A DNA stretch of 64,000 nt from Taxawa tesnikishii (nom. ined.) (Eukaryota > Ascomycota > Dothideomycetes > Dothideales), in NCBI GenBank assembly GCA_030247885.1, contig JAPDRO010000027.1:1-64000 (forward strand). Reading direction: 5' to 3'. Below the pieces are notes generated by a model. That model did no database searches, was not told the DNA's origin, and saw only the letters and a program-made list of their open reading frames with translations. This document shows, one piece after another, positions 6,292-61,193 of the stretch; positions within the stretch are counted from its first letter, which is position 1, and each line of letters starts with the position of its first letter. A program made the position numbers and the translations under genes.

Positions 6292-6329
6292 GACTTCTAC
6301 GAGTAGTATTCTTACGAATCTAGAACGTA

Positions 6330-10920: not shown

Positions 10921-10924
10921 TATA

Positions 10925-12771: not shown

Positions 12772-12773
12772 TA

Positions 12774-14551: not shown

Positions 14552-16396
14552 ACGTATTTTATTACTAAGTAGTTACCTCCTACTAAGCGGCTACCCCTTA
14601 CTAATATCGCGACTATTATAGACTATTACCTTCGCACTATAATACTATATAAAGACTTACTTTAGCCTATAATACTATTTAGAAGCGTCGCTATCGTCTA
14701 TATCTACTATTTCTATAGTATAGGTACGCGTATTATAGTTAGTCTTATCGTAACGTTTATAGTACCTTTACGCGCGTACCCTCTTTATAAGCTATTTAGT
14801 ACCCTCCTTACTACTACTATCCTTTTCGGCTATTAAATCCTATACGTTACTTACTATTAGGCTCTCCTCTATTCGAATATACTTTCTTTTATAACTATAC
14901 TACTCTATTAACGCCTTAATCGACTTCTAAAGACCTACGATTTCCTTGTTTATAACTCTAATTTATAACCTATAATAGCTACGCCTTTAGTAAGCGAATT
15001 TATAACTTATAAAAGAGGCGAAATAGGCGATTCTCTATACTATTATATTCGCTCGCGAACTAGCGTTATTTACGCCTTTATCTCCTTTAGGTTAGCTAGT
15101 ATTTTAGACTCCTACGGAGTGACTTTTAATAGTACGAATATTAGCGTATAAAGTACTACGTTAAGCTTTAATAGTACTCGCTCTAAGTCGTAAGGAACTA
15201 AACTAGCGCCTCTAAAGCTTACTAGGATATTTTCCTTTATAATCGCCTTATTAAAAGCGATATAAAAGGCTAGTAAGAAGGCCTCTTTCTTAACTTACGT
15301 AGTAGAGTACTATAACTAGCTATTAATCTCCGCGTTATACGCTCGCTTTAAGGGGCAAAATAGCCTACGTTAAGTAGCTATAATAAGTACGATAAGTATA
15401 AGGGTATATAAAGAATAATAATCTTCTATTCTTTATAGTAGTTATAGAAATTATAACTACTATAACTCTCGTAGCCGTCTATAATTAGTAGGTAGTATAT
15501 ACTTACTTAACGCGCCTTTATATACGCGTTAAAGTACTTTAACTACTTTAAAGTAAGCTTATTTGTCGTCTAGCCGTTAGCGCTAGTCTTAATTACTTAA
15601 TCGCGAGGTAGGCCGACGTACTAGCTCGATATAAGGACCTTATTACTAAAGATAATAAAGGGTAAGATAACTTACCTAGTAGCGTAAATACCTTAAATAA
15701 TTATAACTTACTCCTAGTTACCTAGTTATATCTTTTAAAATTACTTCGTTTCTTAGAGCCTATAAAGACTATTTAAGCGTTAATTATACTTATTATAAAC
15801 CTAGACTTATTAAAGTTATATATATCTTCGTCTAAGATACTATACTTCTTCTTTGTCTTTTAACTAGCTCGAACTAGGGCGTTATAACGCGTGCGTCTTC
15901 GTTTAAGGCTCGCTAATAATCGTATAGATAACTACGTCGAAGCTTAACTTCCTTAGTACGTATCTTAAACCTATCTACCTAGTACTTACTAATAAGTCCT
16001 TTACTATACGTAGTAAGTAAATCGTTAGCTATTTCTTCTACTATAGTCCTTATAGCGCCTATCTCTCGTAAGTCTAACTCGAGTATACGTACTACTATCG
16101 CTTCTTCCTTTATTTTCTTTAGCTTTTTCGAGTTAGGCTTATAGTCGCGTCGTACGAGCTTTTCGTCGCGTCGTCGTCTTAGCGTCGTTTAGGGGACGTC
16201 GTATACCTTAGACGCGTATTTTATACTATTAGGAGGAGTTACTTAGGTAGCCTTAATAGCAAGGTATAGTATACCTTTATTATAGGTAAATTGCGCGTTA
16301 CGTTATAGTAGCATTATTATAATAGTTTATAATAGTTACGATGTTAGTAAGGGGTAGCTACTTAGTAGGAGATAGCTACTTAGTAATAAAACACGT
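14552..16396 (-). mobile_element. Fot1/pogo-like DNA transposon, family A, copy 1 (1,845 bp)
   Basis: Inverted ends ACGTATTTTATTACTAAGTA (left) and the reverse complement on the right, extending about 75 bp inward, with TA on both sides (14,550-14,551; 16,397-16,398). The minus strand resembles a pogo/Fot1 transposase: a DDE-type catalytic region is recognisable near 15,600-15,850. It sits inside the end of a Copia pol region. The frame is destroyed by RIP. Confidence 0.85.
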
Positions 16397-16506
16397 TATA
16401 GGAAATAATTACTAATAGCTTTATAAAGCCTTTTAAGGTTAGTATTTCTAGAAGTTTATTAGTTAACTTAAACTATTTAAAGAAGACTAATCTAGTTAAG
16501 GAGGAT

Positions 16507-16673
16507 TATTATAAGATAATAACTACCTAGTCTAAATAAATAGTTATATAACTTATTAAGCTAAGTAAGGAATCTCTTTATCCCTTAGTTACTATTATAA
16601 ATAGGATAATTAATTAATAAGTTATAGTTAGTTCTACTATATATTTAGTTATAGTTAAGTATTTAGTTTAACT
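16507..16673 (+). repeat. Copia LTR (167 bp), 3' LTR of the fragment
   Basis: Starts TATTATAAGATAATAACTAC and ends TTTAACT. It has the same length as, and is near-identical to, the four LTRs in block 2. Confidence 0.85.
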
Positions 16674-16678
16674 AATAC

Positions 16679-17617
16679 TAAAGTTAATACTAGTTTTAAA
16701 GGTAGTTTATCTAATTAAAAAGAATAAATATTTACTACTATAATAAAGTAAGTTTTATATTTAATAGCTTTGTTAAATTATATATAGTTAATAATACTTT
16801 ATTATCCTTCTTAGTTATTTAGCGTATTAATAGTATTTATTATAGTACTTAGAAAACGTATAGTTACTACTAAGGTAATAATAGCTATATATTTATAATA
16901 GTAAAAGGACTTAGGCTCTATTTTATTTTATAAAATAGTATCCTTTATAATAGTAGTATTTATACGCTTATATTAGTTTATTTAGAGGTCCTTAAAAGTA
17001 GTACTTAATATACTATTAATATAAAAGATAAGTTAGTAATTATAGTAAGCCTTAAACTTTATCTTTATAAGTATAACTAACTTATAATAAGGCCGAGGAG
17101 TCCTTTAAAGTAGTATTAAAGTTATTTAAGTCTTACTTATATTACTATCTTTTTAAGTTAAAGGCATAGTTTTTAAGGCTTCTTTTTTAATTAATAATTA
17201 ACGTAACTCGTCCTTCTTCTTTTATAACTCTTTATTTTTCCTTTATAATTCTTTCTTTTCTTTTAACTAATACGCTACTTTTACTAAGTAGTTTAATTTA
17301 GTAACTAAAGTATAAGTAATAATTACTTTTAACTTAACTATTAGCTTAACTATTTCTTTAAAGTTAATTATATAAGTATTATAAGTAGCTACTTATTAAA
17401 TAAGTTATTAAATAAGTTACTAAGTATAAACTACTTTCTAGTTAGTTAAAGTATTTATTACTACTAGTTTTTTACTAACTAAGTCCTAGTAACTTTCTTC
17501 TTAACTTTTATATTTTTTAAATACTCTTTAAAGGCTTACTTATAATTAGTTAAATTTTCTAAGAGTATATAAGTAATACTTCTTTAATTAGCTTTATAAA
17601 GTACTTACTAATACTAG
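16679..17617. other. RIP-degraded DNA, not recognised
   Basis: AT-rich, CA/TG-poor sequence between the Copia LTR and the family C transposon. I see no terminal repeats or domain similarity. Confidence 0.45.
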
Positions 17618-17619
17618 TA

Positions 17620-19467
17620 ATATAAACTACGAGGTAGTAAACTAGGTAAAGTAGTAAACTACTAAAACGTAACTCTTTAATCTTTTAACTTTATTACTAC
17701 CTATTATAAATGCTTTTATAACTAGTAAACTAGTCTATACTAAAGCTAATATTTAGAATGTACTTTATACCTTAAAAGAGAAGTAATACTCTTCTATTCG
17801 TAAGGCTATTAGCGTATATAATATTCCTTATAATACTTTACGTAATTATATAGTTAAACGAACTTTACGCGTAATAGCGCGTAAATCGTAATAAATCCTT
17901 TCGAACGTAAAAGAGAAGACGTTAATTTAATAAATTATACGTCTTATATATACTAGCTTTTCTACTTCGCTTATATTAGTTATATAAATAGCTAAAGAAA
18001 TTTAACGCGAACGCGTATAATTATCGAGGACTTTATAACTTTCTCCTCGACTAATTAGTAAGAAGTAGCTTAACTACTTTAAAACTTACTATTTTAAGAT
18101 AGTAAGTATTTAGACTTATTAGATCGAAAGTATACGCTTTAATATAATAAGTTATAACGTTATAAAGAGATAGTTTAATATAATAACGGAACTATTTATA
18201 TAGTATAACTACTCTCTAAAGTACGTTTATAATATAAACGAGTCTAACTTTATAGTTAGAGCGAGTTAAATATTAAGAGTATTAGTTAATATACGTAAGG
18301 TAGCTAGTTAAAAGTAAATTAAAAGTAAATAAGAGTAAATAATTATAATCGAGTATATAAATACTACTAGAAAAGTTATATTACCCTTAATTATCTTTAA
18401 GGCTAAATATACTAATACTATATAAGTACTTATATATACGCCTCTAGACTAGAGGTTCTTAACTAGTAGTAGTAACTAGACGTTTAATAGTTATAGTTTA
18501 TAGTAACTAACTATTATCTTCGAGTCTTTAATATAATTAAAGGACTTTATAATACGAAGAATACTAATTATAAATAGCTATAGTAGCTATATAACTATAA
18601 AGGTAATTGCTTTTTATATAGAGAATATAATCGACTTACTTATCTTATTACTATACTATTCGCATATATTTTAACTACTTAATATTAGTATATTTACGCT
18701 ACTTAAGCGTACGCTAGCTTTAGAAACTAACGCTACTTTATAAGTCGACTCTAGTTATATATTATATATAAAATAAACGGAGATATATATCTACGTAAAA
18801 GCGAAGGCTCTTAAAGCTAGTAGTATCCTTAGTAAGTAAAAAGGCGCTAGTCTCTAGCCTTTAAGCCTTATAATAGTACTTAATAAGCTACCTACGAAGT
18901 TAACTATAATAAATATATAACTTCGTATACTTTTATAACGACTTAATCTAGACTTTTTACTATTAGATAGCTCTTTACTAAATAGTACTAAGTTACGCGA
19001 AGTAAATATAATACTTAAATTAGTAATTAAAGCTACGTAGGATATTTCTTCTTTAGTAAAGCGTTATATAAAGTAAATAACTTACGTTTTTAAAGCGATA
19101 TATAGCGAGAACGTTATATTATATAAGTAAGTAAAAGAGTAGTAAGAGTTTCTTAATATATAAAAGACTTAAAAGAAGGGAAAGTAAGTTATATTAAAGA
19201 GAAAGTTCGTATTTAGTACGTAAGAAGTACTCGAAATAATTAAAGTAGTCGAAGCAAAGTTATCGACTAAAAACTACGTAAATAACTACGTAAGCGTCTA
19301 ATCGAGAAAGCGCTAAAGGATAAGGAAGATAAAGTACTTAGAAATATATATAGCAACTTAGATTCTAACTATATTATTATTATAGTACGCAAATAGTAGT
19401 TAAAGCGAAAAGAGTCGCATCTTAGTAGTTTACTACCTTACTTAGTTTACTACTTCGTAGTTTACGC
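17620..19467 (+). mobile_element. Fot1/pogo-like DNA transposon, family C, copy 1 (1,848 bp)
   Basis: Inverted ends built from TAAACTACGAGGTAGTAAAC and a second similar word; the right end is its inverted copy. TA flanks lie at 17,618-17,619 and 19,468-19,469. A RIP-mutated pogo-type transposase frame (helix-turn-helix then DDE region) runs on the + strand. It aligns along its whole length with 56,227-58,069. Confidence 0.85.
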
Positions 19468-19800
19468 TAGTAAATTAAGTACTAAAAAGTAAACTAGTAC
19501 TATAATATACTAATTTACCTATTAGGATTTTGTAATAGAATAATAATAGTAAATATTAATACTATAAACAAATATATTAACTAGAGTTAAAACTACTTTT
19601 CTAAATAAATAAAGATTATATTTAGGACCGTTAAATAGAATAATAAGGCTATAATATTTACCCTCTAATTTTAAGAACTCTAGGCTTAGATCTATTATAT
19701 TATTACTACGGCGTAAACATATCTCCCTAGGAGCTTTTAAAGTATAAATCCTTATACTTAGGCTAGCTTAATTGTACTACGAACTCATCTTGTTTACTAG

Positions 19801-21648
19801 TCAAGCTAGTTTGCCCGCTCCTTCCCTCGGCTTAATACGTACATTAAAGTTTATCCGGTGCACGAAGAACGCATTCTTCAAATACATCGGCTTTGCAGTG
19901 TCGACAAGCTCGATCTGTACTCACGTTAGTCTCATCGAGATTATGCTAAACGCATGCCACTACAAGATTCTTACCTCGAATTTCCTTAGAAAGCTAGGGA
20001 CCATTTTGTAAGTTTCCATAAGGCTAATGTTTTTGCCAATGCAGGTTCTCGATCCAGCGCCAAATTGGAACATGCTTTGGCGCATCTTCGACAGTCTAGC
20101 GGGTTCACTTTCCATCCAACGCTCAGGTCGATATTCGTCGGCGTCTTCGCCAAACACCTCTTTGTTTTGGTGCAAGACCCAAGCGTTGCAACCGACGACT
20201 GTGCCGCCCGGTACAAATTGGCCACATATCTTTGCGCCTTGTGGAGGAGTGATGCGTTCCAAAAGAAGCCCGACGGCGGGATGCATGCGGAACGCTTCGT
20301 TGATCACAGCGTCGAGATACGGCAGCTTGTTGGCAGCAGTGAAAGGAACCACATCACCTGCGCCGGTGGTGTCTTGAGACGAGGCAAGAGCGCCTGCTGC
20401 ATCCGCCGCGTCAATCTCTTGCATCAGTTTCTTGTAAACGCGTGGGTTTTGCAAGAGATAGTGGAATACGCTTGCCAGACTGATCGCAGTGCTGTCGGAG
20501 CCTGCAATTATCAACGATGCACACATGGCCGTGATGCGATTGTCTGTTAAGAACTCCGGGTTCTTCTCTTGGGATTGCAAAAACCTTTCAAGAAAGTTGA
20601 CGCCTCTTTTGGGGCGCTTGCCTCGACTTGATCTAGGCCATGTCTGAGATGCTCGCGTTGCCGATCAAGAGCAAACTTAACAATGGCCGCGTTCGGGCTC
20701 GACGGCCAGAGCCCCTTGGATTCAAAGAACAGCTTGATCGGGTTCTTGACGAAGAGCCGATCCAGCCAGGGGTCTTGACCGATGACCGTGCCGTAGTTCT
20801 GGAAGGAATCGACAGTCGAGATGATGTTCGACACGTCCTTGTCCTCCTCCACGAAGCCGAGGCGTTTCGACCATGTAATCTCACCAATGACATCGAACGC
20901 GAAGTATTGGATCCACATCGAGAAGGAGCAATCTCGGCCTGTGTTTGCAAATCGTTTCTGTGTTTGTTGGAGGAAAAACGAAGTGCAGCTATCCACGAGC
21001 GGCTCATAGTGGAGCAGCGTCGACAATGCAAAGGCATGATTGACAGATCTTCGAAGACGAGCATGGAAGTCCTCCGATCTGGTCGAGAAACTACAAAGCC
21101 TCTCTGTCAGCTCTGATAGGAGCTTTGAGATCCTTGAATGCTTCGTTTCCCAAGCGCCCACGGCTGAAGGCGTTGTAGACGGGTACGGAAAGACAGTACG
21201 TTCTGACTAAAAATTTGGCAATACTTACAGATTATAGATAACATTCCCTTTGTTCACTGTGGCAAAGACATCATAATATCCACTCTGAGTGATATCAGTA
21301 ATGCGGCCGTACCAACGTCAAATTCTCAGGACTGACCTTTGTGTACCCCTTGTTTAGACCATAGATATCTGCAATAGCTCCCGGATCACCGAAAGACAGC
21401 ACGTTAGGTGCGACTCGAACGATATCACCGTACTTTTGATGTAGCTGGCGGAAGGTGATATGTGTGTCCCGCTTCCAGACATCAACTAGCCGCCACGTAT
21501 TCGTTAACGAGGCGAGAAACGGGCCTGGATATCTGTTCAGTCCTTTCTGATACTTCTGCAACATGAAATACACAATCAAAAAAATCACGAGGAGAACAGT
21601 AGCACGATAGCCATTCAACAAAGCAGAGAGCTTGAATTCTGACATCAT
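19801..21648 (-). CDS. Cytochrome P450, pisatin-demethylase-like
   Basis: A microsomal haem monooxygenase; substrate unknown. I read exons 21,337-21,648, 21,229-21,284, 19,975-21,091 and 19,801-19,914 with GT-AG introns of 52, 137 and 60 bp, giving about 530 residues, normal for the family. Seen in order: an N-terminal membrane helix, YPGPFLASL, the I-helix AGSDST, ExxR in NEAFR, YRPERW, and the haem loop FGAGSRTCIG. Frame is lost once inside exon 3 near 20,606, consistent with one missing base; the protein pattern continues on both sides. The start is the ATG at 21,646-21,648. It is divergent from the SnoaL-like gene across 377 bp, suggesting shared control. The best family guess is the CYP57/pisatin demethylase type, made from general resemblance only. 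Confidence 0.88.
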
Positions 21649-42417: not shown

Positions 42418-43335
42418 TGCAGTGAGTTGGGGGAAGAGGGGTAACAAGGGGAGTGTGGGATATGTGTATAGTGTGTAGCTCGATACCTAGTCGCCCCATG
42501 TATGTTCTATTACAGCTCATTCGACTGATGGGACCTATACGGAGTGAGCTTAGCATAGCCCCGTTATGTAGAGCGGCAAGTCATCCAAACGCTCCTAGAC
42601 GTTATTCGCTTTCTTGAAAGGTCCGCGTCCGCTACTTAGATGTTACCCTTCGGATTTCGTTATACCGGTATATAGCTGTACATCGCCTTCCTATAGTCTA
42701 AGTACTACGCCGAGCTATCGTAGCGAAGGTAGACAATTTCAATTAAGATGTTAAAGGGAATATTAGTTTACTAAAAGAGAAGTATATTATGTTAGAGCAA
42801 AGGTTAGAGCTAATAGTTATATACGTAAAGACTTAGAAAGTCTCGATTTTAAGTTAAAAGTAAGTTTTCCTTATTTACGACTCTATCTTTTCTTAGAATA
42901 CTACCTATTCTATATATGAAAGTTTTAAAGATAAGCCTTCTTATATTTATATAATTTTAACTCTTTTAGTATAAGTTTCTTACTATAAGTAATATCTATT
43001 TTTCTTAATAGTTCTTTACTTTACTTTTATAGAAAGTTTTTTATTAAGATATTTAAATTATCTATTCTCTTAATAATTATTATATTTAGAGTCTATATAA
43101 GAACTATTACTTTATAATTTTATAATAAGTATATATAAAGCTTCTAAGTATATACTTATAATATTTCTACTTATATTAAGTTAAATTTCATTTGAAAGAT
43201 ATTTTTCTTCTTTTTAGTTAGTATTTTCTTTTCTATTTAAGTACTTAAGTATTTAGTATCTAGTAATATAATCTACCTTTATATTTATTTTAAATAATCT
43301 TAAAGCTTAATTATATATTACTTTATATATATATA
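42418..43335. other. EDE1 downstream region passing into RIP-type DNA
   Basis: The first 220 bp are ordinary 3' sequence. From about 42,740 the DNA is AT-rich and CA/TG-poor. No element ends or domains are recognised before the pogo-like element at 43,338. Confidence 0.55.
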
Positions 43336-44627
43336 TAACGTATTTTATTACTAAGTAGCTACTATTACTAAGCGGCTACCTCTTACTAATATTGTAACTA
43401 TTATAGACTATTACCTCCGTACTATAATATTATATAAAAAGACCCTTTAGTTTATAGTACTATTTAGAAGTATCGCTATTATTTAAATTTACTATTTTTA
43501 TAGTATAAGTACGCGTATTATAGCTAGTCTTACTATAATATTTATAGTACCTTTACGCGCGTACCTTCTTTATAGGCTATTTAGTACCCTCCTTACTACT
43601 ACTATTCTTTTAAGTTATTAAATCTTATATATTACTTACTATTAGGCTTTCCTCTATTTAAATATATTTTCTTTTATAACTATACTACTTTATTAACGCC
43701 TTAATTAACTTCCGAAGACTTACGATTTCCCTTGTTTATAACTCTAATTTATAACTTATAATAACTACGCCTTTAGTAAGTAAATTTATAGCTTATAAGA
43801 AAGGTAAAATAAGCGAATTCCTATATAGTTATATTTACTTATAAACTAGCGTTATTTATACTTTTATCTCCTTTAAGTTAGCTAGTATTTTAGACTCTTA
43901 TAAGGTAGTCTCTAATAGTACGAGTATTAGCGTATAAAGTACTACGTTAAACTTTAATAGTACTTACTTTAAGTTATAAGGAACTAATTTAATACCTTTA
44001 AAGTTTACTTAGATATTATCCTTTATAATTACCTTATTAAAAGCAATATAAAAGGCTAGTAGGAAGGTCTCTTTTTAACTTATATAGTAAAGTACTATAA
44101 CTAGTTATTAATCTCTATATTATACGCTTACTTTAAGGGAGTAAAATAGTTTATATTAAGCGACTATAATAAGTACGACGAGTATAAGAGTATATAAAGA
44201 ATAATAATCTTTTATTCTTTATAGTAGTTATAGAAGTTATAACTACTATAACTCTTATAGTTATCTATAATTAGTAAATAATATACGCTTATAGTATACG
44301 TCTTTATATACGCGTTAAAGTACTTTAATTACTTTAAAGTAAGTTTATTTATTATTTAGCTATTAGCGCTAGTCTTAATTACTTAATCGTAAGGTAAGTT
44401 TACGTACTAGCTTAATATAAGGACCTTACTACTAAAGATAATAAAGAGTAAAATAACTTACTTAGTAGCGTAAATACCTTAAATAATTATAACTTACTTT
44501 TAGTTACTTAGTTATATCTTCTTAAGATTACTTCGTTTCTTAGAGCTTATAAAGACTATTTAAGCGTTAATTATACTTATTATAAACCTAGACTTATTAA
44601 AGTTATATATATCTTTATTTAAGATAC

Positions 44628-44794
44628 TATTATAAAATAATAGTCGCCTAGTCTAAATAGATAGTTATATAACCTATTAAGCTAAGTAAGGAATTTCTTT
44701 ATCTCCTAGCTACTATTATAGATAGTTTAATTAATTAATAAGTTATAGTTAGTTCTATTATATATTCGGTTATAGTTAAGTACTTAGTTTAACT
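44628..44794 (+). repeat. 5' LTR of Copia 1 (167 bp)
   Basis: Begins TATTATAAAATAATAGTCGC, ends TTTAACT. The adjacent internal sequence GTTATAAGCCCGAG is a plausible primer-binding site. Confidence 0.85.
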
Positions 44795-47700
44795 AGTTAT
44801 AAGCCCGAGTTTATAATAGCTTACTACTTAATTAAGTATAATATATTTTGTACTTAAAAGGACTATAATAAGTAGTAAGACTAGTATAATTAATACTTAT
44901 ATTAAAAGGGCTACTATAAGTAGTAAGACTAATATAATTCTTATATATAAAAGAGCTACTAAAAGTAGTAAGACTACTTATAAAAGTATACTAGTACTTA
45001 GAAGAGTTATAAGGTAGTAAGACTAAGTACTATAGAGTATAGTAACTAAAAGGACTATAATAAGTAATAAGACTAATTATATTAAGTAAAGTTCTTTACT
45101 ATTATAAGTTTACTAAGTATTATAAAGCCTACTCTACTTTTATAAATATCGAAGTCTATTAACTTATTACCCTCCCTTTCGCGCTAATTCGATTTTACTA
45201 TACTATTTTAATTTATATAAATAACTATAATAAGCTTAATAGACGAATTCTTTAGTAAGAGGAGGCTTATTTTTATTCTTATAAAAGGGAATTTAGAGAG
45301 ATAATTTATACTTATAAGAGAGTAGTTAATAGGAAAGAATATCTAGTTTATTATTAGAAATAAATTAAAAGAAAAGGAAAGTATATAGATAATAACTTTA
45401 TTTTTAACTTTAAGGGAAGAGTTTATAATAACTATATAGTTTCTTATCTTCCCGTCTTATATTTAAGTTAATATAAAAGCTAAATACTAAATTACTATTT
45501 ATATTAGTAAGGATAACTAAGACTAGATTAAGGACTTAAATATAACTATAACTAAATAAAAGGAGCTAAGGAACAAATACTTAGATAAGCTTTAAATAAT
45601 AATAAGGTAGTACTTATAGGATTTTATTAACTATAAAATAAGCCTAGAGACAACTATAAATAAAGTATAAACTTAACTAACTAAGCTAAGTAAGAAGGTA
45701 GTTACTATTTAACTAGATATAGTAACTATTAAGAAGTTAAGTAAGAGACTTTAGTAACTACTCTAAGCTTTACTAAATAAATATACTATTATAAGGGATA
45801 CTATTAATACTTAAATAAATCTACTAATTAAGGAGTTAATCCTTAAGCTTTAAAAGAGAAAAGTTTCTCTTAAGACTAAGGCTAGCTAATTTATTCTTCT
45901 TACTAAAAGGTATTAATAATAAAAGATATCTAATAGAAGGAAATCCTAGTTACTAAATTAAGCTAAGTATTATCTTTATAATAGTAACTACTAGCTAAAA
46001 AACTACCCCTCTTTTAAAGATATAAAGACTATAATAAAGGATAAAAGGAAATAAAAGAAGTCTTAAGCTAAGTTAAAGAGGAGTAATAACGATATAATAG
46101 ACTTAATTAATAAGCTTTATAAAGAAGTTATAAACTTAAAGTAAGAAAAATAAGTTTAAAGTAAAAAAGAAGAAGTATAAAGCCTTTAAAGTTAAGGAAA
46201 CTTTAACCTTAAGTAAATCCTAGACTATAGAGTTAAATCTATTAAGCTAAAATTAAGAGTCTATAGACCTTATTAAGGAAGTTACTTATTTCTTTAAGGA
46301 AGTAAGAAGTAAAGTTCCTTACTAAAGCTAAGCCTCTAATACTAGTATAAGTTTATATATAACTAACTAGCCCTAGTTATTTAAGGGACTACTTCGAGAT
46401 ATCTTAAGATAAAAGATTATAGTAAGAAGAGGAGTTCTATTCTTAAACTACTAGGGTATAGTAGAGATAATAAATAAAGATAAGAACTCGATCTTTTTAT
46501 TAAAGATACTTTATATTTCTAATTTCGAAGTTAACTTATTATCTAGAAGGAAGATATATAAAAGTAGACTTTATAAGACCTTCGACGAAGATAATATATA
46601 CTTAAAAGATAAATAAGGAAATATTATAGTAAAGGTAAAGTATAAAGGTAATATTTATATTATAAATAAGATTATCTCGCCGAATAATTAATATACGTTT
46701 TAAGCTATATTAAGTACTTATTAAGGTTTTATTCTATTACATTTACGAGATAAGATTACTTACTAATAAGTAGAATCTATATAGCTTTAAGAGCCGAGTA
46801 ATTAGCTAGCTAATATACTTAAGGATTTACTAATAAAAGTTAAGGTAAATATTATATAACTCCTAGAGTTACGTAAAGATTTAATAGATAGTCTCGAAAA
46901 GGTACTAGTAAAAGATATAGCCTAAAAGTAGAAATACTAACTATAATATAAAAGGCTTACTTATTTTAAGGCTAAAAGATTAGTAACTTATATAAGGTTA
47001 TAATATTTACTAAACTAATCTAAATTAATAAAAGCTATTAATATAAGATTTATACGCTTACTAAGATTAGGAATAAGAAGGGACCTCTCTTAATAAGAAA
47101 GCTAGAGGTACTTAACTTAGTTTATATAAATATTTATAAACTATTTAAACTATTATAGTAAGGGTATATTATATTCCTTCTTATTATAAATAACTACTTA
47201 AAGAAAACTTAAATCTATAGACTAAGGACTAGGGATAAAGCTCCTACTTACCTTTAGTAATAAAAGAAGAAAGCGGAACTTTAGAGTAAAGCTAAGCTTA
47301 AGGCTATTAGAAGTAATAATACTCCTAAGCTAAAGGAAGTCTTTTAAAAGTAAGAGAAATAAGAGGGAGTCTAACTATAGTTTACTATTACTTAAATATC
47401 TTTATAAAATAGAGTTATTAAAAGAAGTAACTAGACTATAGAGTTTAATATAAGGGTAATACTTAAGGACGTAGGGCTACTAAACGAGTTCTAGTTTAAG
47501 GTAATATAAACTAATATTTACTTTAGAAACCTTATATCTAACGGACTAGTTATTAATAATAAATAACTTAGTCTTAAGGAAGCTTTTACTAAAATTACCT
47601 TATTAATTAACTATATTAAAGTCTAAGGTTATAAAGTTATTACTTATATAAACCTAAAATCTCTACCTTTATTCTTAAGATAAAATAAGCTAATAAATAA

Positions 47701-48875
47701 AAGTAAAGTTAAAGTCTTTATAAGTTATATTAAAGGTACTACTAAGTAATAAAAGCTTTAAGTACTAGATATAAGAAAGATAATTATAAGTAGAGTAGTT
47801 AAGTTCTTTAAAAATAAAAAGGAAGGGAATATTAAGCTTAATATACTTATTAAATCTACTCTAAATATAGTACCTTAAAGGAGGCTAATTAGTAAACTAA
47901 GGAAGTAACTAATAGAGCCTATACTAAGTATTTATAAGGATATACTATAGTAGGAGGAACTTCTTAAGACTATAAATTAGGAGGAGTCTTATATAACTTA
48001 GTAAGAAGAGTCTTTACTAAAAGAACTATAATAAGAGGAGCGAAAGATAGTTATTTTAACTTAGCTAAAAACTATATTTTCTTACGTTAAGATTCCTACT
48101 TTAGTTTTACTAAAAAGGTCTTTTCTTACGTCGAAATCTTAATACTTAAGAAAATAAGAGAGAATCTTAATAAAGACGAGTTAGAAATTAACTATAGGCT
48201 AGCTAAGATCTTTAAGGCTCTTATAATTCTACTTATAAAAGAAGAATAAAATTAAGTTATCGCTCTTTTTAAAGTTAATTAAGTAGAGGAAGAGTTTGCT
48301 TTTATAATAAAAGGTAAAATAAACATCCTAATTTTATAAACTTATTTAAAAGTTATTTATAACTCTATTTAGGAAGAACTTTAAAAGGAAGTTATTAAGA
48401 AAGAGCTAGATACTTTATAAGTAAACGTAACGTTTAAAATAGCTACTCTATTAAAGGAGTATAATATTATATTAAGTAAATAGGTTTTCGATATTAAGTT
48501 TAACTTAAATAAATCTCTAAATAAGCTAAAGGCTAAGCTAATAATAAGAGGATTCTCTTAGAAGTATAGTATTAATTTTAAATATACTTTTACTTTTACT
48601 TTAAGGTATAATATTTTAAGAGTCTTTTTAACTATTATTATAATCGAGGATTTAAAGTACTATTAAATAGACGTTAATAATACTTTTACTAAGTTGTTCT
48701 TAAAGGAAGAGATTTATATAGTACTTCTACTTAGTATTAATCTCGCCTTTAGCTAAGTACTTAAGGTTCTTAAGAGTCTATATAGTCTTAAGTAAGTAGT
48801 AAGAAACTAAAACTAGAACTATATATTATAGCTTTAAAAGCTAGGCTTCGTTTAAAGCGAAGTAAACTTATATCT

Positions 48876-49042
48876 TATTATAAAATAATAGCCGCCTAGT
48901 CCGAATAAATAGTTATATAACCTATTAAGTTAAGTAGGGAATCTCTTTATCTCTTAGCTACTATTATAAATAGCTTAATTAATTAATAAGTTACGGTTAG
49001 TTCTACTATATATTTAGTTATAGTTAAGTACTTAGTTTAACT
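48876..49042 (+). repeat. 5' LTR of Copia 2 (167 bp)
   Basis: Same ends and length as the other LTRs; the next bases again read GTTATAAGCCCGAG. Confidence 0.87.
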
Positions 49043-52000
49043 AGTTATAAGCCCGAGTTTATAATAGCTTACTACTTAATTAAGTATAATATATTTTATG
49101 CTTAAAAGGGCTATAATAGGTAGTAAGACTAGTATAATTAATACCTATATTAGAAGGGCTACTATAAGTAGTAAGACTAATATAATTCCTATATATAGAA
49201 GGGCTACTAGAAGTAGTAAGACTACTTATAGAAGTATACTAGTACTTAGAAGGGCTATAAGGTAATAAGACTAAGTATTATAAAGTATAGTAACTAAAAG
49301 GACTATAATAAGTAATAAGACTAGTTATACTAAGTAAAGTTCTTTACTACTATAAGCTTACTAAGTATTATAGAGCCTACTTTACTTTTATAAATACCGA
49401 AGTCTATTAACTTATTACTTTCCCTTTCGCGCTAATTCGATTTTATTATACTATTTTAATTTATATAAATAACTATAATAAGCTTAATAGACGAATTCTT
49501 TAGTAAAAGGAAGCTTATTTTTATTCTTATAAGAGGGAATTCGAAGAGATAGTTTATACTTATAAGAGAGTAGTTAATAAGAGAAAATATCTAGTTTATT
49601 ATTAAGAATAAATTAAAAGAAAAGAGAGTATATAAACGATAACCTTATCTTTAACTTTAGGGAAAGAGTCTATAATAACTATATAGCTTCTTACTTTCTT
49701 ATTTTATATTTAAGTTAATACGAAAGCTAAATACTAAATTACTATTTATATTAGTAAGGATAACTAAGACTAAATTAAGGACTTAGATATAGCTATAGCT
49801 AAATAAAAGGAGCTAAGGAACAAATACTTAAATAAGCTTTAAATAATAATAAGGTAGTACTTATAGGATTTTATTAACTATAAAATAAGCCTAGAAATAA
49901 CTATAAATAAAGTATAAACTTAACTAACTAAGCTAAGTAAGAGGGTAGTTACTACTTAACTAAATATAGCGACTATTAAGAAGCTAAGTAAGAGACTTTA
50001 GTAGCTACTTTAGGCTTTATTAAATAAATATACTATCGTAAGGGATACTATTAATACTTAGATAAATCTACTAATTAAGAAGTTAATCCTTAAGCTTTAA
50101 GAAAAGAAGCTTTTCTTAAAGCTAAGGCTAGCTAATTTACTCTTCTTACTAAAAAGTATTAATAATAAAAGACGTCTAATAGAAGGAGATCTTAGTTACT
50201 AAATTAAGCTAAGTATTATCTTTATAATAGTAACTATTAGCTAAAAACTACCCCTCTCTTAAAGATATAAGGACTATAGTAAAGAATAAAAGGAAATAAA
50301 AGAAGTTTTAAGTTAAGCTAAAGAGGAGTAATAACGATATAATAGACTTAATTAATAAGTTCTATAAGGAAGTTATAAACTTAAAGTAAAAAAGAATAGG
50401 CTTAAAGTAAAAAAGAGAAAGTATAAAGCCTTTAAAACTAAGGAAACTTTAACCTTAAGTAAATCTTAGACTATAAAGTTAAACTTATTAAGCTAAGATT
50501 AAAAGTCTATAAACCTTATTAAGGAAGTTACTTATTTCTTTAAGGAAGTAAGAAGTAAAGTTTCTTACTAAAGCTAAGCCTCCGATACTAGTATAAGTTT
50601 ATATATAACTAACTAGCTTTAGTTATTTAAGGGACTACTTCGAGATATCTTAAGATAAAAGATTATAGTAAGAAGAGGAGTTTTATTTTTAAACTACTAG
50701 AGTATAGTAGAAATAATAGATAAGGATAAGAACTTAATTCTTTTATTAAAGATACTTTATATTTCTAATCTTAAAGCTAACTTATTATCTAAAAGGAAGA
50801 TATATAAGAGCGGACTTTATAAGACCTTTAACGAAGACGATATATACTTAAAAGATAAATAAGGAAATATCGTAGTAAAGGTAAGGCATAAAGGTAGTAT
50901 TTATATTATAAATAAGATTACTTTGCTAAATAATTAATATATATTTCGAGTTATATTAAGTACTTATTAAGGTTTTATTCTATTAAATTTACGAGATAAG
51001 ATTACCTACTAATAAGTAGAATTTATATAGCTTTAAGAGCCGAGTAATTAGCTAGCTAATATACCCGAGAATTTGCCGATAAAAGTTAAAGTAAATATTA
51101 TATAACTCCCGGAGCTATATAAAGATTTAATAGATAGTCCCGAAAAGGTATTAGTAAAAGATATAACCTAAAAGTAGAAATACTAACTATAGTATAAAAG
51201 GCTTACTTATCTTAAGGCTAAAAAGATTAGTAACTTATATAAGGTTATAATATTTACTAAACTAATCTAAATTAATAAAAGCTATTAATATAAGATTTAT
51301 ACGCTTACTAAGATTAGGAATAAGAAGGGACCTCTCTTAATAAGAAAGCTAAAAGTACTTAACTTAGTTTATATAAATATTTATAAACTATTCGAACTAT
51401 TATAGTAAGAGTATATTATATTCCTTTTTATTATAAATAATTACTTAAAGAAAGCCTAGATTTATAAACTAAGGACTAGAGATAAAGTTCCTACTTACCT
51501 TTAGTAATAAAAGAAGAAGGCGAAACTTTAAAGTAAAGCTAAACTTAAGGCTATTAAAAGTAATAATACTTTTAAGCTAAAGGAAGTCTTTTAAGAGTAA
51601 GAGAAATAAGAGGGAGTCTAACTATAGTTTACTATTACTTAAATATCTTTATAAAATAGAGTTATTAAAAGAAGTAACTAGACTATAGAGTTTAATATAA
51701 GAGTAATACTTAAGGACGTAAGGCTACTAAATAAGTTCTAGTTCGAAGTAATATAAACTAATATTTACCTTAAAAACCTTATATTTAACGAACTAGTTAT
51801 TAATAGTAGATAGCTTAGTTCTAAGGAAGTTTTTACTAAAAATTACTTTATTAATCGACTATATTAGAGTCTAAAGTTATAAAGTTATTACTTATATAAA
51901 CTTAAAATCCCTACCTTTATTCTTAAGATAAAATAAGCTAATAAATAAAAGTAAAGTTAGAGTCTTTATAAGTTATATTAAAGGTACTACTAAGTAATAA

Positions 52001-54199
52001 AAGCTCTAAGTACTAAATATAAGAAAGATAATTATAAGTAGAGTAGTTAAGTTTTTAAGGATAAAAAGAAAGGGAATATTAAACTTAATATACTCGTTAG
52101 ATTTACTCTAAATATAGTACCTTAAAGGAGGCTAATTAGTAGACTAAGAAGGTAGCTAATAGAGCCTATACTAAGTATTTATAAGAATATATTATAGTAG
52201 GAGGAACTTCTTAAGACTATAAATTAGGAGGAGTCTTATATAACTTAGTAAGAAGAGTCTTTACTAAAAGAACTATAATAAGAAGAGCGAGAGATAGTTA
52301 TTTTAACTTAGCTAAAAACTATATTTTCTTACGTTAAGATTCTTACCCTAGTTTTACTAAAGAAGGTCTTTTCTTACGTCGAAATCTTAATACTTAAGAA
52401 AATAAGAGAGAATCTTAATAAAGACGAGTTAGAAATTAACTATAAGCTAGCTAAGATCTTTAAGGCTCTTATAACTCTACTTATAAAAGAAGGATAAAGT
52501 TAAGTTATTACTCTTTTTAGAGTTAATTAAGTAGAGGAAGAGTTCGCTTTTATAGTAAAAGGTAAGATAAATATCTTAATTCTGCGAACTTATTTAGAAG
52601 CTATTTATAACTCTATTTAGAGAGAACTCTAAAAGGAAGCTATTAAGAAAGAGCTAGATACTTTATAAGTAAACGTAATATTTAAAATAGCTACTTTATT
52701 AAAGGAGTATAATATTATATTAAGTAAATAAGTTTTCGATATTAAGTTTAACTTAAATAAATCTCTAAATAAGCTAAAGGCTAAGCTAGTAGTAAGAGGA
52801 TTTTCTTAGAAGTATAGTATTAATTTTAAATATACTTTTACTCTTACTTTAAGGTATAATATTTTAAGAGTCTTTTTAGCTATTATTATAATCGAGGATT
52901 TAAAGTACTATTAAGTAGACGTTAATAATACCTTTATTAAGTTATTCTTAAAAGAGGAAATTTATATAGTACTTTTACTTAGTATTAATCTTACTCCTAG
53001 CTAAGTACTTAAAGTTCTTAAGAGTCTATATAGTCTTAAGTAAGTAGCGAGAAACTAGAATTAGAACTATATATTATAACTTTAAAAGCTAGGCTTCGTT
53101 TAAAGTAAGGTAAACTTATATCTTTTAATTTACTTAGAAAGGAAGATACTTCTCCTTATTTACGTAAATAATATCTAAGTAGCGTATAAGGACATTAATA
53201 ATATCTTATAGTTTAAAGAGGCTTTTACTTTTATCTTTAAGATTAAGAACTTAAGAGAAATTAACTTTATCTTTAAAGTAAGAATTATAAGGGATAAGGA
53301 AGCTAAAATAATTAAAATAGACTAGTCTTATTATATTAAAGATATTCTTACTAAATATAATATAGAGAAAGATAAAGCTTACTTAGTAAAGGTACTATTA
53401 AATAGTTATAATATACTAAGACTAGCTAGACCTTAAAATATAAGGATAAACTAAAGAGAGTACTAGTATCTAATTAGAAAGATAGTTTACCTTAATATTC
53501 TAATAAGGCCTAATATTACCTTTACCTTAAGTAAACTAAGCTAGTACTTTATAGATCTAGTAGAGTTTTATATTAAGGTAGTTAAGGGAATCTTAAGGTA
53601 CTTAAGATTAAATACTAACTTAGCAATTATTTTAGGAGTATATTAAGACTAATATTTAACTAGCTTTTTTAACTTTAACTATATAATAGATAAACGAGAT
53701 AAAATCTCTATCCTTAGTAATATGTTTATACTTAAAGGAAAGCTAATTAGCTAAATAAGTAAGAAGTAAAAGTTAGTAGTAACCTTTACTATAAATACTA
53801 AATATATAGTAATATATACTTACTTAAAGTAATTATAATAGCTTATACTACTCTTAAGAAATATAAGTTATTAGTACCTTATTAATAGCGACCCTTTTAA
53901 GCTAATAGTTTAGAAAGAGCTAAAGTTTACTATTAAATTACCTATTATACTTAAAGGAAATAACTAAGTTACTCTTTCTCTTATTTAAGATACGTATACT
54001 TATAATAAATTAAAGTACATCGATATAGCCTATTATTATATTAACGATCTATATAAGAGGAAGAGGATTAATATTAACTTTATTACTATATAAGAGATAA
54101 TTACTAATAGCTTTATAAAGCCTCTTTAAGGTTAGTATTTCTAGAGGTTTATTAGTTAACTTAGACTATCTAAAGAGGACTAATTTAGCTAAGGAAGAG

Positions 54200-54366
54200 T
54201 ATTATAAGATAATAGCTACCTAGTCTAAATAGATAGTTATATAACCTATTAAGCTAAGTAGGGAATCTCTTTATCTCCTAGCTACTATTATAAATAGCTT
54301 AATTAATTAATAAGTTATAGTTAGTTTTACTATATATTTAGTTATAGTTAAATACTTAGTTTAACT
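54200..54366 (+). repeat. 3' LTR of Copia 2 (167 bp)
   Basis: Follows the end of the RNase H region. Ends TTTAACT before the TATCT target copy. Confidence 0.87.
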
Positions 54367-55447
54367 TATCTTTTAATTTACTTAGAAAGGAAGATACTTT
54401 TCCTTATCTATATAAATAATATCTAAGTAGCGTATAAGGATATTAATAATATTTTATAGTTTAAAGAGACTTTTACTTTTATCTTTAAGATTAAGAACTT
54501 AAGAGAAATTAACTTTATTCTTAAAGTAAGAATTATAAGGAATAAGAAGGTTAAAATAATTAGAATAAACTAGTCTTATTATATTAAAGATATTCTTACT
54601 AAATATAATATAGAGAAAGATAAAGTTTACTTAGTAAAGGTACTATTAAATAGTTATAATATACTAAGACTAGCTAGACTCTAAGATATAAGAATAGACT
54701 AAAGAGAGTACTAGTATCTAATTAAAAAGATAGTTTACCTTAGTATTCTAATAAGGCTTAATATTACCTTTGCCTTAAGTAAATTAAGTTAGTACCTTAT
54801 AGATCTAATAGAGTTTTATATTAAAGTAACTAAGGGAATCTTAAGGTACTTAAGATTAAATACTAACTTAGCAATTATTTTAGGAGTATATTAAGACTAA
54901 TATTTAACTAGCTTTTCTAACTTTAACTATATAATAAATAAACGAGATAGGATCTTTATCCTTAGTAATATATTTATATTCGAAGGAGAGCTAATTAGTT
55001 AAATAAGTAAGAAGTAAAAGTTAGTAGTAACCTTTACTATAAATACTAAATATATAGTAATATATACTTACTTAAAGTAATTATAATAGCTTATACTACT
55101 TTTAAGAGATATAAGTTATTAGTACCTTATTAGCGGCGACCCTTTTAAGTTAATAGTTTAGAAAGAGCTAAAGTTTACTATTAAATTACCTATTATACTT
55201 AAAGGAAATAACTAAGTTACTCTTTCTCTTATTTAAGATACGTATACTTATAATAAATTAAAGTATATTAATATAGCTTATTACTATATTAAAAATCTAT
55301 ATAAGAAGAAGAGGATTAATATTAACTTTATTAGTATATAGGAGATAATTACTAATAGCTTTATAAAGCCTCTTTAAGGTTAGTATTTCTAGAGGTTTAT
55401 TAGTTAACTTAGACTATCTAAAGAGGACTAATTTAGCTAAGAAAGAG

Positions 55448-55614
55448 TATTATAAGATAATAGCTACCTAGTCCGAATAGATAGTTATATAACTTATTAA
55501 ACTAAGTAGAAAATCTCTTTATTTCTTAGCTACTATTATAGATAGTTTAATTAATTAATAAGTTATAGTTAGTTCTACTATATATTTAGTTATAGTTAAG
55601 TACTTAGTTTAACT
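55448..55614 (+). repeat. 3' LTR of Copia 1 (167 bp)
   Basis: Same length and ends as the other LTRs, followed by the AATAC target copy and the rest of the pogo-like element. Confidence 0.87.
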
Positions 55615-56226
55615 AATACTATACTTTTTCTTTGTTTTTTAACTAACTTAAACTAGGGCGTTATAACGTATATATCTTTATTTAAGGCTTACTAATAATC
55701 GTATAAATAACTATATTAAAGCTTAACTTCCTTAGTATATATTTTAAACCTATTTACTTAGTACTTACTAATAGGTCCTTTATTATATAGTAAGTAGATT
55801 ATTAGCTATTTCTTTTACTATAGTTTTTATAGTACTTATTTCTTATGCGTTTAACTCGAGTATACGTACTATTATCGCTTTCTCTTTTATTTTCTAGAGC
55901 TTCTTTAAGTTAGGCTTATAATTATATTATATAAGCTTTTTATCGCGTCGTCGTCTTAGTATTATTTAGAAAATATTAAATACCTTAGACGCGTATTTTA
56001 TACTATTAAGAGAAGTTACTTAAGTAGTCTTAATAGTAAAGTATAATATACCTTTATTATAAGTTAATTACGTATTACATTATAGTAGTATTATTATAAT
56101 AGTCTAAAATAGTTATAATATTAGTAAGGGGTAACTACTTAGTAATAGTAGCTACTTAGTAATAAAACATATTATATATATATATATTAGAGCCTTATAA
56201 TATTTATTTATAAGTTCTATTTACTA

Positions 56227-58069
56227 ACGTAAACTATAAGGAAGTAAGATAAGTAAGGAAATAAGATACTAAAACTTATTTTCTTAACTTTTAAACTTAC
56301 TACTATTAATAATAAGTACTTCTATATTAGATAAGTAAGTTTATATTAAAGCTAATATCTAGAAGTATATTTCTACCTATAAAAACAAAGACTATAAATT
56401 AGTTTGAGACGCTACTTACGTATTTAATATTCCTCTTACTATTATATATTATTATATAGTTAAATAACCTTTATACGCTATAGCGTATAAATCGAATTAA
56501 ATCCTTTTAAACGCGAAAGAAAAGACGTTAGTTAGATAAATTATACGTCTTATACGTACTAGCTTTCCTACTTTACTTACGTTAGTTATATAAATAACTA
56601 AGGAAATTTAATATATACGTATATAGTTATTAAAGAAACTACTACTATTTCCTCGGCTAATTAGTAAGAAGTAGCTTAACTACTTTAAGACTTACTATCT
56701 TAAGATCGTAGGTATTTAGACTTATTAAATTAAGAGCGCGCTTTAATATAATAAGTTATAATATTATAAAGAAGTAATTTAACGTAGTAATAAAGCTTTT
56801 ATAAAATATAACTATCTTCTAGAGTATATATATAATATAAACGAGTTCGACTTTACTATCGAAGTAAGCTAAATATTAAGAGCTCTAGTTAATATACGCG
56901 AGATATTTAGCTAAAAGGTAATTATAAGCTATTAAGAGTAAATAACTATAATCGAGTATATAAGTACTATTAAAGTTACCGTACTTCCCTTAATTATCTT
57001 TAAGGCTAAATATACTAATACCGCCTAAGTACTCTTATATACGCCTTTAAACTAAAGGTTCTCGACTAGTAGTAGTAGTTAAACGTTTAATAGTTATAGT
57101 TTTTAATAGCTAACTATAGTTTTTAAGCTCTTAACGTAGCCTAATAACTTTATAATACGAAGAATATTAATTATAGACGACTATAGTAGCTATATAATAG
57201 CGAAAGTAATTACCTTTTATATAAAGAATATAATTAACTTACTTATCTTATTACCTTACTATTTATATATACTCTAATTACTTAATATTAGTATACTTAT
57301 ATTACTTAAGTACGCGCTAGCTTCGGAGACTAATATTACTTTATAACTCGACTCTAACTATGTATTATATATAAAGTAAATAAAGATATATATATACGCG
57401 AAAACTAAGGCTATTATAACGAGGAATATCTTAAGTAAATAGAAAGCTACTAGTTTAGTACTACTAAGCCTTATAATAGTACTTAATAAGTTACTTATAA
57501 AATCGACTATAGTAGATTTATAACTTTATATACTTTTATAATAACTCGATCTAAACCTTTTATTACTTAATAGTTTTCCTTTAAATAGTACTAAGTTACG
57601 CGAAGTAAACGTATTATTTAACTCTATAATTAAGGCAATTTAGGAGGCTCTATTCCTAGCGAAGTAATATATAAAGTAAATAACTCGCACTTTTAAAGTA
57701 ATATATAGTAAGAACGTTACTTTATATAAGTAGTTATAAGAATAAAAAAGCTTCTTAATATATAAAAGGTTCGAAAGAAAAGAAAGTAAGTCGTATTAAA
57801 GAGTAAGTTTATATTTAATATATAGGAAGTACTTAAGATAATTAAGGTAACTAAAGCGGAGTTATCGACTAAAAAACTACGTAAACAACTACGTAAGCGT
57901 ATAATTAAAGAAGTACTAAAAGATAAGGAAGATAAAGTACCTAAAAATATATATAGCGACTTAGATTTTAATTATATTATTATTATAATATATAAGTAGC
58001 TATCAAATATAAATATTAGCATTATTATATCTCGCTTCCTTACTTATCTTACTTCCTTATAGTTTACAT
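56227..58069 (+). mobile_element. Fot1/pogo-like DNA transposon, family C, copy 2 (1,843 bp)
   Basis: Inverted ends ACGTAAACTATAAGGAAGTA and its complement, with TA at 56,225-56,226 and 58,070-58,071. The interior aligns with 17,620-19,467, including the transposase-like + frame. The terminal words differ from copy 1 (TAAGGAAGTAAGATAAG against TACGAGGTAGTAAACTA), so the two may be sister subfamilies. Confidence 0.83.
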
Positions 58070-58249: not shown

Positions 58250-61193
58250 AATATCGACTACATTATCTTCTAACTTTAATATTAATCCCTCGTTAGCTAT
58301 GCCGTAAATATAGGCCTGACCTACTAAGAGATAACCGTCACTCTACCTTCGAAGCACATACGGTACTTTAAGGCCATGTAAGATGCAGATCCAATCACCG
58401 TCCTTAGCGGATTTAGACACTAGTCCCATGTAACCCATTTCGCAGACAGCGAATCGACGTCCCGAGTATGACTTCGTAAAGTAGCCATCGTACTCGGCAG
58501 CATCTTTAGAGAGGGTATGCCGCCCCTTTATGTCATTTGGGTAGTCCCTAGCATACCGCCAAAGGCTAGTACCTCGTGGTACGAGGCAACCAGGTCTTCG
58601 TAGGAGTGAGAAGACATGTTGTTTTCGATATTCGTTCTCAAGAAAGCCTCCTGGAGGTTAGGATAGACGCTGTCACAGGACTGAGATAGTAGTTGTGAGG
58701 CCCCTCAACTATCCGTAAAGAATTTCCACAGCATCTTTGTAGTAGAAAGATGTCTGCGTAAGGTCGAGAGGCTTTGTTATTCCGGTGATACGCTTGAACA
58801 GGGTTCCCCTAATGACTATTGCGGTGTCTCGAGGGCCAAGACGTACGTCTCTCCATAGGTTGTTCTCTGCACTGGGGCCATAGGTGCTGTCTAACGGGTC
58901 CTCGAATGGTCGCCGAAACTCGCCGCTGACAGTCCAATCAGGAACCCAGGACGGCAAACCCAGAACCTCCTGACCAAGGCTTGCTGCGACAACGACCTGC
59001 AAGCCTTTACCGGTCTTGACGAAGTACCTTGCGAATTGTGTGTACACTTTGTCGACCGTCTGACTGTAGTCGACTCTGGGCACGAAATCTCGATCGGCGG
59101 CCAGACTATGAAGGGCGTATATCTTGTCCCTAGGATCCGTTGCTTGGACATTACGAAACCTACATAACAGGTCCAGTAGTGATGGTGGTGCCGTGAGCGC
59201 ATCTGGTGCTGTCTTACCAATCGCCTGCAGATTACGTCTTCCATGCCAGACACGTTTAACAGACACGGTTTCTGTCTCCATCGCATTGTTTGCGGCGACA
59301 ACGTCGCTGAATCGTGAATATCATCAAGACATTCTGATTGACTAAGACTTCCTGGACAACCCAAGCCCGCGAGAACCAAGGGAGTGATCTCATGTAGTTC
59401 CACGCTTGCCATGCTGTATGTGTTTTGTTAGGGATGCCAAATTTCGTCAGCTCGGAGTATTGAAGCGAGGGCTGTTCAGGCCGGACAGCGTGCAGAACGG
59501 AATATGCTAGAGACAGCATCTTGATCAGCCACGTAGCGTAGTAGACCCATCTCTGTACGGGCTCTATGCGAGGCAATCCGGGGTGAACGACTACTTCGTA
59601 GGCCGTTCTGTAGATTCTAGTCATCATCATGACCTGTTCGTTACGCTCATCAAGGTCGTCCTGATTTATGCAAACGGCATCCGCCCAGACTTATTCGTAG
59701 CCTTGGTCCAAAAGCTCGGAAAGCGCTAGGTGTAGACTCTGTGTGATCTCCAAGAACGAACCGTCCTTCTCCAAAGTAAGGCCTCTTCGACGATCCGGAT
59801 TGCCCCAACAGTATGAGAGAGCAACGTATCTTGGTGCGTTCTCCAAGGATGTAGTGATCATCTCGGCTATGATCCAATTCTTCGTGTTCGCGATCAGTTT
59901 CAACAACCTTATCCATTTACCTGGATTGTCCAATCTGAAATGGCTGTATTTGAAGCCTTCCACGTTCAGTAGCTGTTTCGCTTGTTGGCTGATTCGAGTT
60001 GAGAGGACATCATGGTGCGCTAGTTCCGCGGCGTCGTCTCCTTGGACACAGAGTGAATCGAGGAACAAGTTTGACTGCCGTGGCATCTTGGTGTGAGACA
60101 GTATGCTCACGAGGTTCCGCGGTCTGTAGATTGTCTGACCATGGCAGCGGATGGCCGTTGCTGGACCATATATCGGAACTCCCATGTGAAGCTTCGTATA
60201 CTCTGGGGTCGAGGATAGTGATACAATTTCCATGCTTATCTCGAGATTGAGGTTCTCCGGTGAAGAGGAAACTACACGGAACAGGCGTATCTCATCTGGT
60301 CGTTGGAGAGGTTCATACACGTACTGGGGGTTTGGTGAGCGCGAACGGGAGGACGGTCTTTCAACGTCCGGATTGAACACGGAGAGTATAGCTGAAGCTT
60401 TCCGGTAGACATCGAGGCGGAATCCCGCGGTACTTGGGCGTTCGTTTTCGTTAAGGCAAAGCTTGTCGAACCAGATCTTGTGAGGTTCCAATTTCCTAAA
60501 CAGTTGGAGCATCACGTATGTCTCGAATGTCACCCGTAGCTCCTTGCCGTTACATATTATCATGTGGTCAGGAGTCAAGTCGTGACTCCATCTCGGTTGA
60601 TAGATTGCAACATGATAGTCTGGTGTTTTGAATGGTGGTTTGTCAAACACCACCTCCTCTATATTGCAGGTGATAAGACCGAACATGCGGTCAACTTCGG
60701 TATCCGTCTTAGAAAGTGGATGTACCGTCAACAGCCGGAAGGGTCCATTGTAGTTACGAGCAACATCGACAGCCGCCGTGCGCTCGACCTCGGGGATGGT
60801 ACGTCCCCACTGAAGCCGCTCCACAAGTCCTGAGAGCTCCTTGTACAAGTCCACCACTGGTCTGTCGGGGAGATTGTGGGATCGTTCGTGGCACCACCGT
60901 CCGCTTGCCACACATAATTCGCAAATGTCGTAGTCGCATATGTCGCAATACCGACCTGTAGTGACAGGAAACATGCTACCATTGCAGCTGTCGCATCTCC
61001 ACATTGGTAGACTCATGGATACGCTGATAGGGTGTGACTTGTCGACGCGGCATTTGTGCTTTGCAGTACAACTTGCACAGAGGTTGAGTATTCTATCTTC
61101 ACAAGTACTACAGTGTACCTCCCGTAAGTCTCTGGTCGATGCCTTGCATACATCGCATGCCGTTGATACTGTTGTGCAGTCCGGCAAATCCAT
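58250..61193 (-). pseudogene. HET-domain protein with N-terminal zinc fingers, degraded at the transposon edge
   Basis: Start ATG at 61,191-61,193; the first 500 residues are open. Residues 13-50 and 67-106 are two Cys/His-rich modules, the second ZZ-like (CDSC...CDICDYDICELC...CHERSH). Residues about 152-275 and 301-413 each resemble a degenerate HET domain (FRLL...WFDKLCLN...YRKASAILSVF; IRLF...LFLDSLCVQ). A canonical HET domain starts near residue 455 with YVALSYCWG and continues as WADAVCINQDD, with MMTRIYRTAYEV and FSRAWVVQEV after it. The reading is interrupted about four or five times from 59,693 onward, and the last part (GRRFAVCEMGYMGL, then YIYGIANEG) fades into RIP-type DNA by 58,250. 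HET proteins act in allorecognition and programmed cell death in fungi. Confidence 0.82.

Follow-up and report, generated by a model that had tools for sequence, protein, structure and literature searches.

The sequence analysed here (the window) covers the first 64 kb of contig C20, from an assembly of 29.4 Mb in 34 contigs. On its minus strand, a frame that starts with ATG stays open for 500 codons (61193-59694) and ends at a TAA (59691-59693). This frame carries two ZZ-like fingers, two HET-like units, and the first part of a canonical HET domain, and further coding sequence lies beyond the stop (Table 1). The canonical domain exceeded the Pfam HET (PF06985) cut-off of 22.5 bits on both sides of the TAA, with 23.1 bits before it and 58.6 bits after it. 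The canonical HET domain that the original prediction placed after two degenerate segments is therefore present, but it is cut by the TAA. Four frames of the gene were tested against Pfam, and none gave a match to NACHT, WD40, PB1, or UBA.

Table 1. Features of the HET gene, with positions in the 64-kb window
Feature	Position	Strand	Evidence
ZZ-like zinc finger 1, weak; residues 13-54	61032..61157	-	Cys/His spacing by eye; Pfam ZZ_ADA2 10.3 bits and ZZ 7.4 bits, both below cut-off
ZZ-like zinc finger 2, sequestosome-like; residues 67-106	60876..60995	-	phmmer best E 0.0022; two-copy profile E 3.1e-4; 28/48 residues identical to C3 paralogue
HET-like unit 1, N-terminal HET half; residues ~152-275	60369..60740	-	Pfam 25.0 bits; own-genome profile 27.0 bits; hhalign 97.3%
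HET-like unit 2, N-terminal HET half; residues ~286-409	59967..60338	-	Pfam 14.6 bits (below cut-off); own-genome profile 37.1 bits; hhalign 97.5%
Canonical HET, first part; residues 414-500; leader IRLLKL, core YVALSYCWG	59694..59954	-	Pfam HET 23.1 bits, profile positions 1-46; own-genome profile 45.6 bits
In-frame stop TAA within canonical HET	59691..59693	-	
Canonical HET, second part; frame unchanged past the stop	59349..59690	-	Pfam HET 58.6 bits, profile positions 50-146
C-terminal region, other frame; break near 59310 placed by eye	58712..59320	-	81/187 residues identical to C3 paralogue
Probable gene end, further piece, GRRFAVCEMGYMGLV...; tail paralogue-like	58346..58657	-	By eye; Pfam none

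The window opens with about 50 bases of AACCCT telomere-type repeats (within 1-1000), and a long T/C-rich stretch comes next. The start of C20 seems to be a chromosome end, and because of these repeats we place the gene about 60 kb from it. Two blocks of low G+C content with sharp edges, at 6000-20000 and 43000-58000, have 22 to 33% G+C, compared with 43 to 60% in most of the rest. We would guess that these blocks are mutated repeats of a RIP-like kind. The HET gene sits on one edge of the second block (43 to 58 kb), where G+C content is 22 to 25%, and a CSE1-family gene starts at about 63.5 kb and extends beyond the end of the window.

We compared each unit alone with the HET family. Unit 1 (residues 141 to 284) scored above the Pfam cut-off (E 2.7e-5), and the genome-wide Pfam HET search flagged it as a separate match (60354-60569, 24.2 bits). 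Unit 2 (residues 285 to 412) scored below the cut-off (E 0.044). We also used a profile, HETA, made from 15 HETs of the same genome that were taken from 40 loci by motif (an IRLL-like leader, C-x-N/D/H-Q, and no stops), with the gene and its paralogue excluded. HETA gave 27.0 bits for unit 1 and 37.1 bits for unit 2, and the top scores among 2000 shuffles were 4.4 and 8.2 bits, respectively; the finger stretch of the same gene, used as a control, scored -2.3 bits. A type B profile from 16 HETs of the other subtype gave the units at most 5.3 bits. By hhalign, two-sequence alignments of the units matched the HET profile at 97.3% for unit 1 (E 1.7e-11, 104 columns) and 97.5% for unit 2 (E 4.9e-12, 123 columns). 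The finger control reached 0.2%, the best of 100 column shuffles each reached 4.1% (unit 1) and 16.3% (unit 2), and the reversed unit alignments gave 0.1% and 0.4%. When the search was reversed, over the frames of the 40 HET loci, locus L029, and the window, the unit profiles recovered canonical HETs at the matching place, with up to 27.2 bits for unit 1 and 15.5 bits for unit 2.

Plain pairwise comparison found no clear similarity between unit 1 and unit 2 (0.7 SD above shuffles here and 0.3 SD in the paralogue) or between the units and the start of their own HET domain (-0.9 to 3.9 SD), and two-sequence profiles of the two units matched each other weakly (71.9%). The HET profile found nothing convincing in the PDB (two chains, at E 0.64 and 0.88), and a PDB sequence search with the units found no chain. 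The profile comparisons above show that units 1 and 2 are both of HET ancestry, and they bear out the original call of both segments as HET-like, by Pfam for unit 1 and by HETA, hhalign, and the shuffle and reversal controls. The more specific claim that both segments follow the HET pattern from an IRLL start onward stood in part: unit 1 scored 25.2 bits without its first 60 residues, and since those 60 residues alone scored -0.4 bits, its IRLL start is unsupported on its own. Without the 34-residue IRL leader, unit 2 scored 17.2 bits. This leader, PQYVYEPLQRPDEIRL, aligns with canonical HET leaders and sets the start of unit 2 at about residue 286, not at 301 as first given (301 to 413); the range proposed for unit 1 (152 to 275) fits.

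The units are N-terminal half-HETs, because they match the profile no further than position 134 of 221 (unit 1) and 121 to 128 (unit 2), and the C-terminal half with WxxRxWxxQE is absent from both; the units lie back to back and leave no room for it. The proposed series of two degenerate HETs and one canonical HET behind ZZ-like fingers thus holds for the order, which is also found in the paralogue, but not for whole units. The YxALSYxWG core was predicted to be missing from both segments, and it is indeed eroded, with the first Tyr as the only core residue that all four unit copies share. Among 32 columns conserved across 8 or more of 9 HETs, unit 1 retains 15 (15/32) and unit 2 retains 11 of 31; the values in the paralogue are 12/28 and 13/28, the latter from an unsure alignment. 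The HET domain resembles TIR over about 100 residues, and this likeness fades past helix alphaC (2014, PMC4986451). Given that extent, the retained half probably corresponds to the TIR-like part. The remote homology of HET to the TIR fold, over about the half that the units keep, is taken from the literature (PMC4986451).

A search of the genome with residues 140 to 500 identified one strong further place, on contig C3 (C3:736103-736873; 35% identity, E 1e-28), with a HET domain directly behind it. The 27 matches of this search comprised the gene itself, two C3 rows, and 24 weak matches (E no better than 5.7e-5), many of which coincide with matches of the Pfam HET search. With the C3 units as the query, the only hits besides the units themselves were the window gene and a single match at E 0.80. 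A finger lies upstream in C3 (51% identical over 55 residues), so that the order of finger, unit 1, unit 2, and HET is repeated there. Over aligned codons, the identity between the copies was 58% for the finger, 42% for unit 1, 36% for unit 2, 48% and 55% for the two HET parts, and 43% for the C-terminal region.

In a tree of 21 rows, which took in HET as far as the stop, the two copies of unit 1, of unit 2, and of HET paired across the genes (support of 100/96, 96/89, and 99/98, respectively). All four unit rows have long branches, which is why we use only these pairings and why the place of the units among other HETs is unsettled. Because each unit pairs with its counterpart, the three-unit order predates the duplication of the gene. 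Unit 1 of C3 scored 18.0 bits with Pfam HET, below the cut-off, and unit 2 of C3 scored 0.1 bits with HETA and had no Pfam match. The HET ancestry of the latter is therefore reached only via its window copy, with which it shares 39 of 108 residues, 20 SD above shuffles. From its presence in two copies in one genome, we consider that the domain order is a real arrangement.

Both copies are broken. The window copy has the TAA inside the canonical HET and the frame break near 59310, so it holds no intact reading frame; in the C3 copy, a TAA follows the finger, the reading frame changes between unit 2 and HET, and HET itself is interrupted by a TAG. Since these lesions differ, independent decay is favored. 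An intron that would explain the TAA at 59691-59693 was rejected by eye, as the flanking residues align to the paralogue without a gap. Its sequence makes a null allele the most likely state of the gene in this strain. In-frame stops also lie inside 28 of the at least 95 matches of the genome-wide Pfam HET search (a hand count), and these may be pseudogenes or read-through introns. We computed dN and dS against the C3 copy and obtained 0.51/1.61 (dN/dS) for unit 1, 0.69/1.21 for unit 2, 0.47/2.72 for the first HET part, 0.36/1.23 for the second HET part, and 0.49/2.56 for the C-terminal region. dN was below dS in all five computable domains (dS was saturated in the finger), which suggests that the units were probably constrained as protein after the duplication and before the decay; the ratios are rough because dS is near saturation. 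Unit 2 has the lowest identity (36%), the highest dN, and the highest ratio among the domains. This divergence, together with the lack of a direct match for unit 2 of C3, also fits a loss of constraint.

The fingers were predicted to be ZZ-like and to precede all other domains. Their position agrees. Their assignment to ZZ is weak, as the Pfam ZZ (PF00569) scores of 7.4 bits here and 10.3 bits for the C3 copy are both below the cut-off of 21.4. The gene sequence matched sequestosome-1 chains weakly by phmmer (best E 0.0022), and a two-copy finger profile gave weak matches to sequestosome-1 chains (E 3.1e-4) and to the HERC2 ZZ (E of about 0.01). The best chain for this profile was a 99-residue "Protein kinase, putative" (4.5e-5), which has no ZZ label. 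The part of sequestosome-1 matched by the finger is presumably its ZZ domain. The sequence similarity of finger 2 to the p62/sequestosome-1 ZZ is weak but recurs in both searches; the fingers here differ from it in scoring below the Pfam ZZ cut-off, and the four frames of the gene give no match to PB1 or UBA. The p62 ZZ domain is described as binding an N-terminal Arg (PMC6197226).

A ZZ-like finger was also seen beside a HET domain at a further locus, L037. Its HET frame is of the other subtype (L037:3018-4500, C9:372517-373999; 111.5 bits). Some 0.5 kb downstream of it, in a different frame, lies the finger CDICGVRVISVYWHCDICSDGDFDVC, which scored 19.0 bits with Pfam ZZ, below the cut-off. 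By its sequence, L037 may be one HET protein with a C-terminal ZZ. As a ZZ-like finger adjoins HET here again, in the other order, the finger-HET association is perhaps not unique to the gene in the window.

Some fungi have more than 100 HET genes. Pfam gave at least 95 HET matches in this genome, two of them in the window gene and one in the C3 copy, and 40 of the 92 others, broadly the highest scoring, were scanned for extra half-units. The scan covered about 3 kb upstream in three frames of the HET's strand at the 40 loci, one strand at L029, and both strands in the window, with pieces of at least 40 residues. No extra half-unit was seen in the 3 kb or so ahead of HET at any of these 40 other loci. 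The one strong upstream match, at L069 (40.5 bits), appears to be the opening part of that locus's own HET in another frame, and weak matches at L034 (10.7 bits) and L058 (5.5 bits) were partial.

The canonical HET was also used as a query beyond this genome. Two stretches in viral contigs fit a pattern, and none was confirmed. Eight loci were found in bacterial and archaeal genomes (L070 to L077), all from one MAG labelled Deltaproteobacteria (isolate CPC1), with HET frames of 256 to 910 aa; no half-units like units 1 and 2 were seen in these eight loci. The two HETA pieces at each of L073, L074, and L076 were read as a single HET interrupted by an insertion, and at L072 a further HET frame lies upstream. 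Either the bin contains fungal contigs or HET has undergone an unusual expansion in CPC1.

Several known systems resemble parts of this gene. It shares a canonical HET outside an NLR with other non-NLR HET proteins, namely PIN-C, TOL, HET-6, and BH of het-B (PMC10197012, PMC10890737), and it shares with PIN-C, a protein of about 900 residues, a stretch of more than 300 residues ahead of HET (PMC2988816). In the window gene, HET stands third, behind ZZ-like fingers and two pseudo-HET halves; the HET of BH is reported to be N-terminal (PMC10890737). With the Podospora NLRs HET-E, HET-D, and HET-R it has in common HET as the presumed death effector (PMC10890737, PMC10197012), but it lacks the NACHT and WD40 matches in the four frames searched with Pfam. 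The original prediction knew of no description of such an architecture, and our search of the open-licence literature, mostly at title level, agrees with it: no description of this arrangement was found there among papers on HET with ZZ or other zinc fingers, on two, tandem, or degenerate HETs, or on HET architectures. The HET family is known, and what appears to be new, as read from the sequence, is the order of ZZ-like fingers, half, half, and HET.

Fusion of unlike fungal strains can set off cell death through members of the HET family. Our preferred reading, to which we assign a probability of about 0.45, is that the gene is the remnant of a non-NLR HET protein in which the finger and the pseudo-HET halves would sense for and restrain a canonical HET cell-death effector. 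The canonical HET would be the effector. The two half-units, with approximately the TIR-like part kept and the core and C-terminal half lost, would have no effector role and would instead pack against the active HET as its partners, either holding it off or lining copies up on a trigger. The ZZ-like finger would be the input, binding a peptide or protein ligand. HET has been described as a death-inducing domain and a remote relative of TIR whose mode of killing is not known (PMC10890737), its overexpression induces cell death (PMC2988816), and TIRs act by TIR-TIR pairing (PMC4986451). A stricter form, which we hold as a doubtful extension, is that the halves are a regulatory module, with serial non-effector copies of the protein's own TIR-like death domain serving as locks or templates and the ZZ-like finger as the sensor. 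The logic of such a module would be comparable to that of pseudokinase-kinase pairs.

The main rival, by analogy with Neurospora PIN-C, is that the fingers and units form an allorecognition specificity region, a variable non-self surface; we regard this as unlikely on present evidence. Codons 8 to 78 and 190 to 390 of pin-c are under balancing selection, with its HET at 335 to 533 (PMC2988816), and our two copies differ most in unit 2, but the divergence of two paralogues is not balancing selection. Somewhat less probable is the view that the units are passive, functionless debris of old tandem HET duplications. That they are cut short, have lost the core, include the most diverged part of the gene, and in the C3 unit 2 are no longer recognizable as HET by themselves would all fit such debris. 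Against this view, the two copies have each retained both units in order, at 36 to 42% identity with dN below dS, and the 500-codon N-terminal frame is still open in the window copy.

That same intact stretch ahead of the stop could mean that, despite the break in HET, a short protein comprising the fingers, the units, and the beginning of HET is still made and inhibits other HET proteins or serves as their decoy. We find this improbable, given that a second frame break lies downstream and that C3 is broken elsewhere, for which independent decay is the simpler account. Least probable is a chance match of the units to HET. Unit 2 does fall below the Pfam cut-off, and the type B profile gives both units little, but the shuffle and reversal controls and the recovery of canonical HETs at the matching place by the unit profiles speak strongly against coincidence.

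A 2023 review counted the HET family, without clearly assigned architectures, among the most obvious gaps in fungal immunity (PMC10197012), and the HET entry in the table of a 2025 review is marked only "ND" (not determined) (PMC12881547). The gene shows that HET ancestry can hide in stretches below the Pfam cut-off. If the regulatory-module reading is true, fungi would have here a death switch that is self-contained and needs no NLR. A gene type in which two HET halves without effector activity stand beside a complete HET would offer a natural handle on how HET is held off or set off.
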